Shown here: positions 19,058 through 51,648 of the stretch, in pieces
Layout: each line of letters opens with the position of its first letter
Position numbering within the stretch: position 1 is the first letter of the stretch
Assembly (NCBI RefSeq): GCF_004798685.1
Contig: NZ_CP039291.1
Location: 2,232,001-2,296,000, forward strand
Origin: Cellulomonas shaoxiangyii
GTDB taxonomy: Bacteria; Actinomycetota; Actinomycetes; Actinomycetales; Cellulomonadaceae
DNA: 64,000 nt
Direction of reading: 5' to 3'
The notes under the pieces: model-generated
What the model saw: the letters and a program-made list of their open reading frames with translations, nothing else
Told to the model about the DNA's origin: nothing
Databases searched by the model: none
Translations under genes and position numbers: made by a program

Positions 19058-22000
19058 TCACGCGGACAGGCAGCTCGGTCCCAGCAGGGCCTTGAGGTCG
19101 CCGTACAGCGACGGCGACCGCTCCACCCGGAGCCCGTCGTCGAGCCGCATCACGGTGACCTTGCCCGGGTTCGTCAGCCGCAGGTGCACCTCGGTGACGC
19201 CCGGGTGCGTCGACAGCACCTCGCGCAGGCGCTCGACGACCGGCGGGGTGCAGCGTGACTCGCTGAGCGAGACGACCACCGGGGCGTCGGCCGCCTGCGA
19301 CACGTCCGGGATCGACACCTCCATCGCCTGCAGCTGCATCGTCTCGTCGCGTCGGCGCACGCGCCCACGCACGACCAGCACGGCGTCCTCCGCGAGCGCG
19401 GTCGAGTACGCCAGGTAGGTCTCGCCGAAGAACATGATCTCGACGGACCCCTCCATGTCCTCCAGCGTCACGGCGGCCCACGGGTTGCCCTGCTTCGACA
19501 TCTTGCGCTGCAGTCCCGTGACCAGGCCCGCGACGACGACCGTCGAGCCGTCCGGGCGCGCCTCGTCCGCGTTGAGCGTGGCGATGGAGACGTCGGCCGC
19601 CGCGGACAGCACGTGCTCGAGGCCCGACAGCGGGTGGTCGGACACGTAGAGACCGAGCATCTCCCGCTCGAACGCGAGGCGCTGCTTCTTGTCCCAGTCG
19701 GGCAGCTCGGGGATGGCGACGCTCACGCCGCCCTCGTCGTCGCCGCCGAGGTCGGCGAACAGGTCGAACTGGCCCTCGGCCTCGCGCCGCTTGACGCCGA
19801 TCACCGAGTCCACGGCCTGCTCGTGCACGAGCAGCAGCGCGCGGCGCGGGTGCCCGAGCGAGTCGAACGCCCCCGCCTTGATGAGCGACTCGATCGTCCG
19901 CTTGTTGCAGACCACCGCCGGCACCTTGTCGAGGAAGTCGGTGAACGACGCGAACGCGCCCTTCTGCTCGCGCGCCGCGACGATCGCGTCGACCACGTTG
20001 GCGCCGACGTTGCGCACGGCCGTCAGGCCGAAGCGGATGTCCTTGCCGACGGCGGTGAAGTTGGCCGACGAGGAGTTCACGTCGGGCGGCAGGACGGTGA
20101 TGCCCATGCGCCGGCACTCGTTGAGGTAGAGCGCCGACTTGTCCTTGTCGTCGCGCACGCTCGTGAGCAGCGCCGCCATGTACTCGGTCGGGTAGTTCGC
20201 CTTGAGGTAGGCGGTCCAGTACGAGACGACGCCGTACGCGGCCGAGTGCGCCTTGTTGAACGCGTAGTCGGAGAACGGCAGCAGGATGTCCCACAGCGTC
20301 TGCACGGCGGCCATCGAGTAGCCGCGCTCCTGCATGCCGGCCGAGAAGCCCGCGAACTGCTTGTCCAGCTCGGACTTCTTCTTCTTGCCCATCGCGCGCC
20401 GCAGGATGTCGGCCTGTCCGAGCGAGTACCCGGCGACGCGCTGCGCGATCGCCATGACCTGCTCCTGGTACACGATCAGGCCGTACGTCGTGCCGAGGAT
20501 CTCCGCGAGCGGCTCCGCCAGCTCCGGGTGGATCGGCGTCACCTCCTGCGCGCCGTTCTTGCGCAGCGCGTAGTTGGTGTGCGAGTTGGCGCCCATCGGG
20601 CCCGGACGGTAGAGCGCGCCGACGGCGGAGATGTCCTCGAAGTTGTCGGGACGCATGAGGCGCAGCAGCGTGCGCATGCCGCCGCCGTCGAGCTGGAACA
20701 CGCCCAGCGTGTCACCGCGGCTGAGCAGGTCGTACGTCGCGCGGTCGGTGAGCTCGAGCTCCTCGAGCACGACCGGGTCCTTGCCGTTCATCACGATGTT
20801 CTCGAGCGCGTCGTCGAGGATCGTGAGGTTGCGCAGCCCGAGGAAGTCCATCTTGATCAGGCCGAGGCCCTCGGACGTCGGGTAGTCGAACTGCGTGATG
20901 ACCGCGCCGTCCTGCGGGCGGCGCATGATCGGGATGATGTCGATCAGCGGCTCGCTCGACATGATCACGCCGGCGGCGTGCACGCCCCACTGCCGCTTCA
21001 GGCCCTCGATGCCCTTGGCGAGCTCCACCACGCGCTGCGCGTCGGGGTCCGCGGCATGGATCTGCCGGAACTCCTCGGCCTCGTTGTAGCGCTTGTCCGC
21101 CGGGTCGAAGATGCCCGTGAGGCTGATGTCCTTGCCCATGATCGCGGGCGGCATCGCCTTGGTGAGCTTCTCCCCCATCGCGAACGGCATGCCGAGCAGC
21201 CGCGCGGAGTCCTTGAGGGCCTGCTTGGCCTTGATGGTGCCGTAGGTGACGATCTGCGCGACGCGGTCCTCGCCGTACTTCTCCGTCACGTACCGGATGA
21301 CCTCGCCGCGCCGGCGCTCGTCGAAGTCGACGTCGAAGTCGGGCATCGAGACGCGGTCGGGGTTGAGGAACCGCTCGAAGATCAGGCCGTGGCGCAGCGG
21401 GTCGAGGTCGGTGATCTTCATGGCGTAGGCGGCCATGGAGCCGGCACCGGAACCACGGCCCGGGCCGACCCGGATCCCGTTGTCCTTCGCCCAGTTGATG
21501 AAGTCGGCGACCACGAGGAAGTACCCCGGGAAGCCCATCGTCGTGATGACCTCGGTCTCGAACTCCGCCTGCTTGCGGACCTCGTCCGGGATGCCGGCGG
21601 GGTAGCGGTGGTGCAGGCCCTTCTCGACCTCCTTGATGAACCAGCTCGTCTCGTCCTCCCCGGCCGGGACCGGGTAGTTCGGCATGTAGTTCGCGGAGGT
21701 GTTGAACGAGACCTCGCACTGCTCGGCGATGCGCAGGGTGTTGTCGCACGCCTCGGGCAGCTCGGCCCAGATGCGCCGCATCTCGGCGGCCGACTTCACG
21801 TAGTAGCCGTCGCCGTCGAACTTGAACCGGTCCGGGTCCGAGAGGGTCGATCCCGAGTTGATCGCGAGCAGCGCCTCCTGCGACGCGCTGTCCTCCTGCC
21901 GGACGTAGTGCAGGTCGTTGGTCGCGACGAGCGGCGCGCCGATGTGCTCCGACAGGCGCAGCAGGTCCTTCAGGACGCGGGTCTCGATGTCGATCCCGTG

Positions 22001-49447: not shown

Positions 49448-49852
49448 TCAGCGACCACCCTCGTTCCGGCGGCGGTCCCAGCGCTCCTCGAGGCGGGACA
49501 TGAAGCCCTGCTTGCGGCCCGCCGGCCGCCTGGCGGCCGCGGGCCGGACGGTCCCGTCGGGCCGGACCGCGCCCTGTGGTCCCGACCGCGGGCTCCGCGG
49601 GGTGGCGAAGGCGAAAGCCACGGCGGCGAACATCACGACGAAGCCGATGGCACCGAGCCACGGCAACGACGACGCGGCACCGACGACCAGCAGCAGGAGG
49701 CCGACGACGGCACCAGCGCCGGCGACGACGTACCGCGTGACCGGGCGACGGCCACCGCGGTTGGTCAGCGTGTTCGCGAGCCGAGGGTCGTCAGAGGTCA
49801 GCTGACGCTCCATCTGCTCGAGAACGCGCTGCTCGTACTCGGAGAGAGGCAT
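49448..49852 (-). CDS. DUF3040 membrane protein
   Basis: 134 residues. Begins MPLSEYEQRVLEQMERQL, the DUF3040 signature, followed by two membrane helices (TRYVVAGAGAVVGLLLLVVG, LPWLGAIGFVVMFAAVAFAF) and a basic C-terminal tail. Members lie near the dcw cluster in most actinobacteria; function unknown. An ATG follows the polymerase-like gene by 36 nt. A CATAGT (49880-49875) could be its -10. Confidence 0.88.
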   Translation of the reverse strand: MPLSEYEQRVLEQMERQLTSDDPRLANTLTNRGGRRPVTRYVVAGAGAVVGLLLLVVGAASSLPWLGAIGFVVMFAAVAFAFATPRSPRSGPQGAVRPDGTVRPAAARRPAGRKQGFMSRLEERWDRRRNEGGR

Positions 49853-49888: not shown

Positions 49889-51136
49889 TCAGGATATGTC
49901 GGCTATGACGATGGTGGTAGTCGAGCGCTGCGCCGGGCGAGCGACCGGAGCGGGTGAGACTCGCCACGCCGCCGGGCCGAGGGCCCCACGAGCACCCGTC
50001 GGCGGCACCCGGACCGACGGCACCGCCTCGTCCGCCTCCCCCGCGCGGGGTGCGCGGACCGTCGACGGGACGTCCGTCAACCCGCACACGGAGACGGCGA
50101 GGGACACCGGGACGGCGTCCCAGGCGACGCCCGCGAGCAGGGCGCGCGCGACCAGGTAGAGCTCCCGGGCGCTCCCGGACGGGGTGTCGAGCGTGCGGGA
50201 ACGGGTGAGCTCCGCACCGTCCGACGTCCGGACGGTGAGCACGACCGTCCGGCCGGCCTGCCGCCGCGCGTCCAGCGCGCGGCCGCACGCGCGTGCCGCC
50301 TCCCGCACGTGCTCCTCGAGCGCGGCCCGGCGCCCCGCCGCGTCCGCGCACGCGACGGCCGCACGGACCACCGGTTCCGCCGGTGCGCGCGGCGTCGGCA
50401 CGACCGGACGGGGGTCACGGCCCCAGGCCAGGTCCTGCAGCCACCGCGCGGTAGCCGGCCGACCCAGGCCCCGCAGGCTCGCGGGCGACGCGTCGGCGAG
50501 CTGAGCCAGACCGCGGATGCCCTGGGCGGCCAGCGCCGCCTCCAACGGGCCGTCGACCTCGGCGAGCGCCGCGACGGGGTGCGCGCGCAGGAACCGGGCG
50601 GTCGCCGCACGCGGCACGAGCAGCACGCCGTCGGGCCGGGCGGACCGCCCGGCGAGCCGCGCGACCACCTTGGTCGCGCCGATGCCGACGGACGAGCCGA
50701 CGCCGTACCGCTCGCGGAGGCGGTCACGGACGGTCCAGGCGATCCGGGTCGGCGGCCCGAGCCGCCGCCGGGCGCCGCCGACGTCGACGTAGGCGGCGGC
50801 CGTCGTCCCGACCGGCTCCACGAGCGCCGTGACCTCCTCCAGCACGGCGAGCAGACCGTCCCGCACGGCCGCGACCGCGACCGGGTCCACCGGGACCACC
50901 ACGGCGTGCGGGCAGCGCGCCAGCGCGGCACCGAGGTCGTCGCCTCGCCCGACGCCGAACGCGCGGGCCTCGGGCGACGCGTCGTGCACCATGCCCCCCG
51001 CGCCGACGAGCACGGGCAGTCCCGTGAGCTGCGGCCGGCGCGCGAGCGCGACCTGGACCGCGGGCGCGTCCACCTCGACGTGCAGGACGTGGCAGCCGTC
51101 CTCCGCGGGTACCGCCCGCGCCGGGGCGCCCGTCAC
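49889..51136 (-). CDS. Y-family DNA polymerase homologue with lost catalytic residues
   Basis: 415 residues of DinB/ImuB-type fold. Palm and finger signatures survive (SVGIGATKVVARLAGRSARPDG, LRGLGRPATARWL), but the catalytic carboxylates do not: DinB HVDMD is HVEVD, the steric-gate FF is PA, and the catalytic SLDEAYLDV is TTAAAYVDV, with Asp-Glu changed to Ala-Ala. It is therefore probably a non-catalytic subunit, like ImuB. No clear C-terminal beta-clamp peptide. The GTG at 51136 overlaps the HEPN gene stop (GTGA), so it is SOS-controlled through that operon. Confidence 0.82.
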   Translation of the reverse strand: MTGAPARAVPAEDGCHVLHVEVDAPAVQVALARRPQLTGLPVLVGAGGMVHDASPEARAFGVGRGDDLGAALARCPHAVVVPVDPVAVAAVRDGLLAVLEEVTALVEPVGTTAAAYVDVGGARRRLGPPTRIAWTVRDRLRERYGVGSSVGIGATKVVARLAGRSARPDGVLLVPRAATARFLRAHPVAALAEVDGPLEAALAAQGIRGLAQLADASPASLRGLGRPATARWLQDLAWGRDPRPVVPTPRAPAEPVVRAAVACADAAGRRAALEEHVREAARACGRALDARRQAGRTVVLTVRTSDGAELTRSRTLDTPSGSARELYLVARALLAGVAWDAVPVSLAVSVCGLTDVPSTVRAPRAGEADEAVPSVRVPPTGARGALGPAAWRVSPAPVARPAQRSTTTIVIADIS

Positions 51137-51579
51137 CGGGACGCCGCTGCGTGCGCCGGCACGTCACCCGCGCGGTCCGCGAGCAGCGCACGCGCCGCGT
51201 CGACGAGGTCCTCGGCAGCGCACAGGGCGCGCTCCGCACGCGCGTCGGACACGAGCTCGAACCGGCCCGCGTCCACCGCCGAGCGCAGCGCCGCCGACTG
51301 GGCGAAGAGGGCCGAGTGCGCGTGCAGCTCGGGGGCCACCGCGTCGAGCATCCCCCACACCGTGCGCGGCGCCCCGCGCCCCGACGGCCGCCCGCGAGCG
51401 GCGACCACGGCCGCACCGGCCCGCAGCGCGGCGAGGTGCGCGTGCGAGAACATCTCCCACGGCTCACCCGAGAACTGGGCGGCGAGCAGCTCGGCGTCCG
51501 CCCGCGCCAGCAGGTCGGCGGTCTGGGGCGGCAGCACGGTCGTCGCTCCGGGCCGCAGGACGCTCACCGGTCCGGCCAT
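51133..51579 (-). CDS. SAV_6107-type HEPN domain protein
   Basis: 148 residues, nearly all alpha-helical (LLARADAELLAAQFSGEPWEMFSHAHLAALRAGAAVVAARG), matching small HEPN proteins of the SAV_6107 kind. The RxxxxH motif of HEPN RNases is not obvious. ATG at 51579 follows GGAGGT at 8 nt; upstream starts would lie before the predicted transcript start. It is the first gene of the operon with the polymerase-like gene, and its promoter contains a LexA box. Confidence 0.78.
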   Translation of the reverse strand: MAGPVSVLRPGATTVLPPQTADLLARADAELLAAQFSGEPWEMFSHAHLAALRAGAAVVAARGRPSGRGAPRTVWGMLDAVAPELHAHSALFAQSAALRSAVDAGRFELVSDARAERALCAAEDLVDAARALLADRAGDVPAHAAASR

Positions 51580-51619
51580 CGCACCCACCTCCCGTCGCGG
51601 CGGAACACCCGCCGACACC

Positions 51620-51648
51620 ATGATCGAACAAGTGTTCGATCGACGCAA
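51620..51648 (-). promoter_or_regulatory. SOS promoter with LexA box between -35 and -10
   Basis: Minus strand TTGCGT (51648-51643), 17-bp spacer, GATCAT (51625-51620). The spacer holds TCGAACACTTGTTCGA (51639-51624), a perfect match to the actinobacterial LexA box TCGAAC-N4-GTTCGA. LexA bound there would block RNA polymerase directly. Start predicted near 51613. Confidence 0.85.

Follow-up and report, generated by a model that had tools for sequence, protein, structure and literature searches.

The ImuA'-ImuB-DnaE2 mutasome of mycobacteria and other Actinobacteria combines a LexA box with a catalytically dead Y-family protein, ImuB, whose RecA-NT-like motif binds ImuA' (PMC11791113). Inactive groups of the Y family are known (PMC6511836), and Actinobacteria with two DnaE2 copies (PMC3919608) as well as an SOS operon composed of a hypothetical gene and DNA polymerase IV (Pol IV; pvnz_37140-37135, PMC9380542) are on record. 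Here we describe a locus of Cellulomonas shaoxiangyii situated within a window of 64,000 nucleotides (contig NZ_CP039291.1, positions 2,232,001 to 2,296,000), in which a gene of the HEPN family PF18726 (HEPN_SAV_6107), preceded by an exact LexA box, overlaps with a Y-family polymerase gene whose catalytic residues are lost (Table 1). We consider it rather probable that we are dealing with the variant, seen in Cellulomonas, of a translesion-synthesis locus which is LexA-boxed, widespread among actinobacteria and characterised by HEPN as its constant element, the dead DinB being a decaying former partner.

HEPN gene and LexA box in Cellulomonas and beyond

A PF18726 HEPN protein is encoded in 79 of 81 Cellulomonas genomes (that of the window included), in 143 of 150 genomes of the family and in 142 of 196 genomes of the class. 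From 66 Cellulomonas genomes 67 loci were fetched (G200 gave two), 12 of the 79 HEPN-bearing genomes lying outside this set; for the scoring of states and for the trees the window was added and the contig-end locus L087 left out, which again results in 67 loci. In the 400 nt preceding the HEPN domain, an exact box is found at 63 of the 67 genus loci, at 10 of 13 loci from other genera of the family and at 26 of 60 class loci, and neither the reversed pattern nor an off-site region, both used as controls, gave a single hit in the genus, family or class set. Among the genus loci an exact box is missing in L078 and L085, each with a one-mismatch site, in L125 and in L084, which lies at a contig end; among those from other genera of the family it is missing in L127 and L128 (again one mismatch each) and in L136. 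Judged from these sequences, almost every genus locus retains the HEPN gene together with its box, regardless of the linked polymerase. In sister lineages the Y gene is shrunk or deleted, and it is HEPN rather than the pair which stays constant.

The box of the window, TCGAACACTTGTTCGA, is placed in the spacer of TTGCGT-N17-GATCAT on the minus strand and represents the only exact TCGAAC-N4-GTTCGA within the 64 kb, in which LexA-type sites with up to 2 mismatches number 10 compared to 2.14 expected (0 of 100 shuffles reach 10). In the whole genome (3.91 Mb), which has 5 exact boxes including this one, 39 sites differ from the LexA box by at most one mismatch, compared to 2 for the reversed pattern. 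Three one-mismatch boxes are located just upstream of lexA (TIGR00498) and, therefore, the box conforms to the operator type of the host's own LexA. In the aligned promoters of the genus the box is preceded by TTGACG or a similar hexamer and followed by GATxxTG. Promoter and box, both present as initially annotated, are conserved across Cellulomonas and, as regards the box, beyond it; an exact and conserved box within a promoter is what is expected of a member of the LexA regulon, and this supports its assignment as a predicted LexA operator. A further exact box, at genome position 1635154, precedes an ImuA'-ImuB-DnaE2 cassette, and another one, at 19572, a C5 cytosine methylase gene (L013:1546-3003). 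Elsewhere in the same genome exact boxes adjoin a radical SAM protein gene (L016:422-1492) and, at 1205400, an open reading frame of 124 amino acids (L014:1509-1880), for which a Pfam search returned no match at E 0.01.

For the class, 60 genera were considered with one locus each, of which about 7 kb per side, or less at contig ends, were read; L140-L159, given a preliminary inspection, enter none of the counts. In 42 of these genera a DinB, a DnaE-type gene or an ImuA'-ImuB-DnaE2 set is present downstream of HEPN, which substantiates the earlier suggestion that HEPN is found next to polymerases of the damage response. On the same strand, a DnaE-type gene directly follows HEPN in 27 loci (a partial DnaE2 in L193), with DinB further on in 26 of these 27; a DinB without DnaE is found in 12 loci, and the order HEPN-ImuA'-ImuB-DnaE2 in three. 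Within 1500 nt upstream, 24 of the 27 DnaE-type loci have an exact box and 26 one with at most one mismatch (control: 0). Two DnaE-type proteins tested have NF004225 'error-prone DNA polymerase' as best match, albeit below its cut-off, and the DnaE-type proteins of the HEPN-DnaE-DinB cluster may form a separate DnaE group. The arrangement DUF6504-HEPN-DnaE-DinB occurs in Kineosporia, Terrabacter, Humibacillus, Nostocoides and Quadrisphaera. The three HEPN proteins encoded before ImuA'-ImuB-DnaE2 match PF18726 with 119-120 bits; two of their genomes share one family, which leaves at most three independent cases. As side observations, the gene before HEPN is DUF6504 in both DnaE-type loci tested by Pfam, and a methyltransferase gene precedes DinB in L164.

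The HEPN protein of the window matches PF18726 with E 1.4e-22 and 80.5 bits (cut-off 27.2), and the best structural matches of its predicted fold, a helical bundle, are HEPN structures. The small HEPN gene overlapping with the Y gene, as initially annotated, is thus confirmed as a member of PF18726, the overlap amounting to 4 nt. Its start had to be revised: the TTG at 51648 originally assumed lies in the -35 hexamer and, since close relatives (146-150 amino acids) cover the protein from the ATG at 51579, the start was placed there. The GTGA shared by both genes suggests that they are translationally coupled.

The linked Y-family gene

With PF00817 and PF11799 and with Y-family polymerases as its structural matches, the Y protein possesses domains and fold of a DinB. 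The model calculated by AlphaFold2 shows a confident body up to about residue 350 and a disordered tail (residues 360-415) with a predicted local distance difference test score (pLDDT) below 50. Alignment to live DinBs reveals that HVDMDAFF reads HVEVDAPA and that the protein has neither the three catalytic carboxylates D, D and E nor the aromatic pair which follows the first motif. E21, A113 and A114 stand in place of the carboxylates, whose loss is a feature of ImuB. The alignments thereby bear out what had been read from the window alone, namely Ala-Ala for Asp-Glu and HxE for HxD, and support the prediction that the protein is catalytically dead. Among the best 120 of 1462 matches the seven nearest homologues (P0004-P0010; 54-78% identity), including that of C. 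telluris (P0008, L221), share the loss to E, A and A, while the next-nearest are live Cellulomonas Pol IV proteins of about 43-52% identity. In a tree of 68 Y proteins, rooted at the midpoint, all dead ones are found on one side of a long branch (1.08) with a support of 100/100. As far as can be told from alignments and tree, the Y protein is a descendant of the DinB of a HEPN-dinB operon.

At the C-terminus of most live linked DinBs QPTLEEA, or a variant close to it, is followed by RREAERAMDxVRxRFGxxAI. From its position, QPTLEEA is a putative beta-clamp motif; the segment RREAERxMDxVRxRFGxxAI resembles, by eye, the RecA-NT motif described in PMC6511836. None of the damaged Y proteins, by eye, has kept this RecA-NT-like segment unimpaired, as it is either lost or eroded. 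QPTLEEA is missing from the dead clade and, in the other damaged proteins, variably altered, L095 retaining QPSLDEA. The C-terminus of L097 is eroded although this locus was scored live, a term which refers to both catalytic motifs being intact and to nothing more. A further peptide, RSTTTFVPADLS at the Y C-terminus, was considered as a binding motif common to live and dead proteins and rejected because the DNA element behind this tail persists in loci without a polymerase gene.

The 67 scored genus loci comprise 42 live, 9 damaged and 2 shrunk Y genes, whereas in 14 the gene is absent. Besides the E, A, A clade, the damaged motifs are HVELD with VGE (L081) or AGE (L126), HVELD with LDS (L086), HVGLD with IDE (L074), and VDG (L092, L095). 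On the tree of HEPN and DUF3040-type proteins, many inner branches of which are weak, at least 6 changes from live to not live are required, and on the Y tree at least 4 changes to catalytic damage. The former tree contains a group of 17 species (Shimodaira-Hasegawa-like approximate likelihood ratio test 99) made up of 2 with a shrunk, 3 with a dead and 12 without a Y gene. In the two shrunk loci, L090 and L091, a miniature dead Y frame, open in both species, is inserted between HEPN and the DUF3040-type gene; by eye, it is devoid of the first palm segment and of the little finger.

Ratios of nonsynonymous to synonymous substitution rates (dN/dS) were calculated according to Nei-Gojobori for pairs picked by lowest dS; as dS is high, some pairs are not true sisters and the method is a simple one, these figures are indicative. 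For the Y gene they amount to 0.30-0.37 in 3 damaged/damaged pairs versus 0.02-0.29 in 19 live/live pairs, the 2 damaged/live pairs giving 0.45 and 0.60. A separate comparison within the dead clade gave 0.32-0.47. The median for HEPN is 0.086 in damaged, 0.176 in live and 0.157 in absent pairs, with 0.154 and 0.433 in the mixed damaged/live pairs. These values therefore indicate a Y gene which is relaxed yet not neutral, and a HEPN gene which is constrained even without Y; the dead DinB would accordingly be under weak constraint. Tighter selection on HEPN after the death of Y, hinted at by hand-picked pairs, was not seen with the lowest-dS pairs and was dropped.

Other translesion genes of the genome

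The initial annotation had supposed a module lacking ImuA' and DnaE2. The genome, however, encodes a complete cassette of ImuA' (NF058630), an ImuB-like Y protein and DnaE2 (NF004225, 1413.8 bits) with an exact LexA box of its own, located at 1.635-1.641 Mb, while the HEPN-Y pair is found at 2.283 Mb. Altogether five IMS proteins are encoded, one of which, P0242, is a second DinB whose motifs are intact and whose gene has a LexA box with one mismatch at its start. At E 1e-90, a P0242-like DinB is present in 50 of 81 genus genomes, including 11 of 11 with a damaged or shrunk Y gene, and was not found in the 12 sister genomes which have retained only HEPN; 10 of 10 such HEPN-only genomes checked have another strong IMS match. 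Replacement of the dead DinB by this one specific paralogue was discarded on account of these 12 sisters, so that only general redundancy survives: redundancy among DinBs may have allowed the decay of the linked Y gene. We would like to note that two P0242-like genes (G177:C9:20925-22175 and G180:C7:102447-103679) contain one in-frame TAG each; both genomes also have a damaged HEPN-linked DinB (L126, L092).

The downstream gene

Following the Y gene, a small DUF3040-type gene is a conserved neighbour in the genus. Upstream of it, the bipartite element CGACT[AT]CC-N19-TATC[CG]T, which is probably a promoter, is present in 61 of 67 genus loci, including 13 of the 14 without a polymerase gene.

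Table 1. Coordinates of the features discussed in the text (window numbering).
Feature	Position	Strand	Basis or remark
-35-like hexamer TTGCGT	51643..51648	minus	genus consensus TTGACG
Exact LexA (SOS) box TCGAACACTTGTTCGA	51624..51639		inside promoter spacer
-10-like hexamer GATCAT	51620..51625	minus	17 nt from -35-like hexamer
HEPN gene (PF18726 HEPN_SAV_6107), 148 amino acids, ATG start	51133..51579	minus	Pfam, relatives, predicted fold
GTGA overlap, HEPN stop / Y-gene start	51133..51136	minus	sequence
Y-family gene, 415 amino acids, DinB (Pol IV)-derived, catalytic residues lost	49889..51136	minus	Pfam, alignments, tree, fold
E21 codon, replacing first catalytic Asp (HVDMD to HVEVD)	51074..51076	minus	alignment to live DinBs
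A113-A114 codons, replacing catalytic Asp-Glu (SVDEAFLDV to TTAAAYVDV)	50795..50800	minus	alignment to live DinBs
Promoter-like element CGACTACC-N19-TATCCT of DUF3040-type gene	49891..49923	minus	inside Y-gene 3' end
Small gene (MPLSEYEQR...), DUF3040-type by eye	49448..49852	minus	conserved neighbour in genus

Proposed explanation and alternatives

In the explanation which we favour, DNA damage would lead to cleavage of LexA, upon which HEPN and the Y protein would be made together by coupled translation. The HEPN protein would be a helical bundle which, without catalysing a reaction itself, serves translesion polymerases as adaptor or regulator; its partner would be DinB ancestrally in Cellulomonas and, in other genera, a DnaE-type enzyme or ImuA'-ImuB-DnaE2. 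In the dead clade other DinBs would make the linked polymerase redundant; the latter would have lost catalysis together with its RecA-NT-like segment and be on its way to being lost, its residual constraint perhaps reflecting binding to HEPN, which itself would continue with other polymerases. Genome context thus suggests that HEPN, under LexA control, assists actinobacterial translesion synthesis as a probably non-catalytic accessory which has gone unrecognised. That it is a core accessory of a new kind, to be placed beside UmuD, YolD and ImuA/ImuB-C, which serves DinB, DnaE-type enzymes and ImuA'-ImuB-DnaE2 and outlives its own DinB, is put forward only tentatively.

Several observations weigh against this explanation. 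Redundancy accounts incompletely for the decay, as 30 of the 42 live-Y loci belong to genomes which also have a P0242-like DinB (12 of 42, counted by eye, do not). The Y frame of the dead clade is intact in the window and its seven homologues (409-420 amino acids), albeit in a count drawn from predicted proteins and hence favouring intact frames, and evolves below the neutral rate, which would not be required of a mere relic. Such intact frames, the dN/dS below 1, the confidently predicted fold, the retention of the frame in several lineages with damaged catalysis and the precedent of inactive Y-family groups would equally suit an independently evolved, dedicated ImuB-like scaffold which, together with HEPN, recruits DnaE1, DnaE2 or another DinB. 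The dead clade, however, appears by eye to have lost those terminal segments (QPTLEEA and the RecA-NT-like one) which its live relatives possess, the tail is predicted to be disordered, and the gene is shrunk in L090 and L091 and absent from 12 sister genomes, so that we regard a scaffold function as unlikely. The alternative mutasome or damage-response module initially suggested consequently fits the Y protein poorly; what remains of it points to HEPN as the conserved LexA-boxed element.

The class data contain further counter-evidence, since 34 of 60 loci are without an exact box within 400 nt, 15 have none of the queried partners (one of them, L183, was scored so although the start of a DUF3040-type gene was seen in the same genome) and 3 have only the DUF3040-type gene. 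The linkage of HEPN with polymerases may hence reflect inherited gene order near the DUF3040-type gene, the SOS function of HEPN being unrelated to translesion synthesis. The 18 of 60 class loci without a polymerase neighbour are in line with this, as are the 12 sister Cellulomonas genomes and the loci of Kutzneria, Umezawaea and some Amycolatopsis in which HEPN has an exact box and no polymerase neighbour. The occurrence of HEPN in three distinct polymerase contexts, and the fact that no DUF3040-type match was found in the HEPN-ImuA'-ImuB-DnaE2 loci, nevertheless make mere gene order appear not particularly likely. Least of all do we expect HEPN to be a toxin with RNase activity, or a factor arresting growth, which is induced in the SOS response while the polymerase is a bystander; we deem this very unlikely. 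The conserved R-x4-6-H active site of HEPN RNases is not found: H48 is the only invariant His, and position 43, the R of R-x4-H48, is Arg in 70 of 102 aligned HEPN proteins and Met in that of C. shaoxiangyii. The SAV_6107 entry in the available part of PMC3710099 reads 'No' for a conserved active site, and the best PADLOC match has an E value of merely 0.014. The protein is thus probably non-catalytic, and the polymerase neighbours in the class speak against a bystander role as well.

If the favoured explanation holds, current accounts of actinobacterial SOS mutagenesis lack a component found in 142 of the 196 sampled class genomes, and a single genus offers a natural series from live via damaged and shrunk to absent, on which one may ask what a polymerase gene adds beside its accessory.

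Comparison with known systems

The passage of PMC3710099 which names the family, there 'HEPN-M (SAV_6107)', to which our protein belongs by Pfam score and predicted fold, makes no link to a LexA box or a polymerase. In the open-licence literature nothing was found on HEPN together with DnaE2 or on DUF6504, and among the matches listed no title links HEPN with LexA or translesion synthesis. A section of PMC5055667 reports cg2381 of Corynebacterium glutamicum as a ciprofloxacin-induced member of the LexA regulon; this species has a PF18726 match, with which cg2381 may tentatively be equated.

The locus shares with the ImuA'-ImuB-DnaE2 mutasome the LexA box and a catalytically dead Y-family protein, and in the three class genera mentioned a PF18726 HEPN gene is found immediately upstream of the mutasome genes. 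It differs in that neither ImuA' nor DnaE2 adjoins the pair and in that, by eye, the RecA-NT-like segment is not seen in the Y proteins of the dead clade. The likeness to ImuB originally noted is weak, the protein being closest, outside the dead clade, to live DinBs of the same operon in its own genus. DinB2-DnaE2 of Streptomyces coelicolor, compared on the basis of its description in part of PMC6511836, likewise provides an inactive actinobacterial Y protein near the DinB core. Unlike in scDinB2, there is no DnaE2 beside the pair, and the nearest relatives are live HEPN-linked DinBs of one genus. With its two Pfam domains, its fold and its sequence identity to live Cellulomonas Pol IV, the Y protein ultimately resembles DinB itself, from which it is set apart by the replacement of the three catalytic carboxylates by E, A and A.
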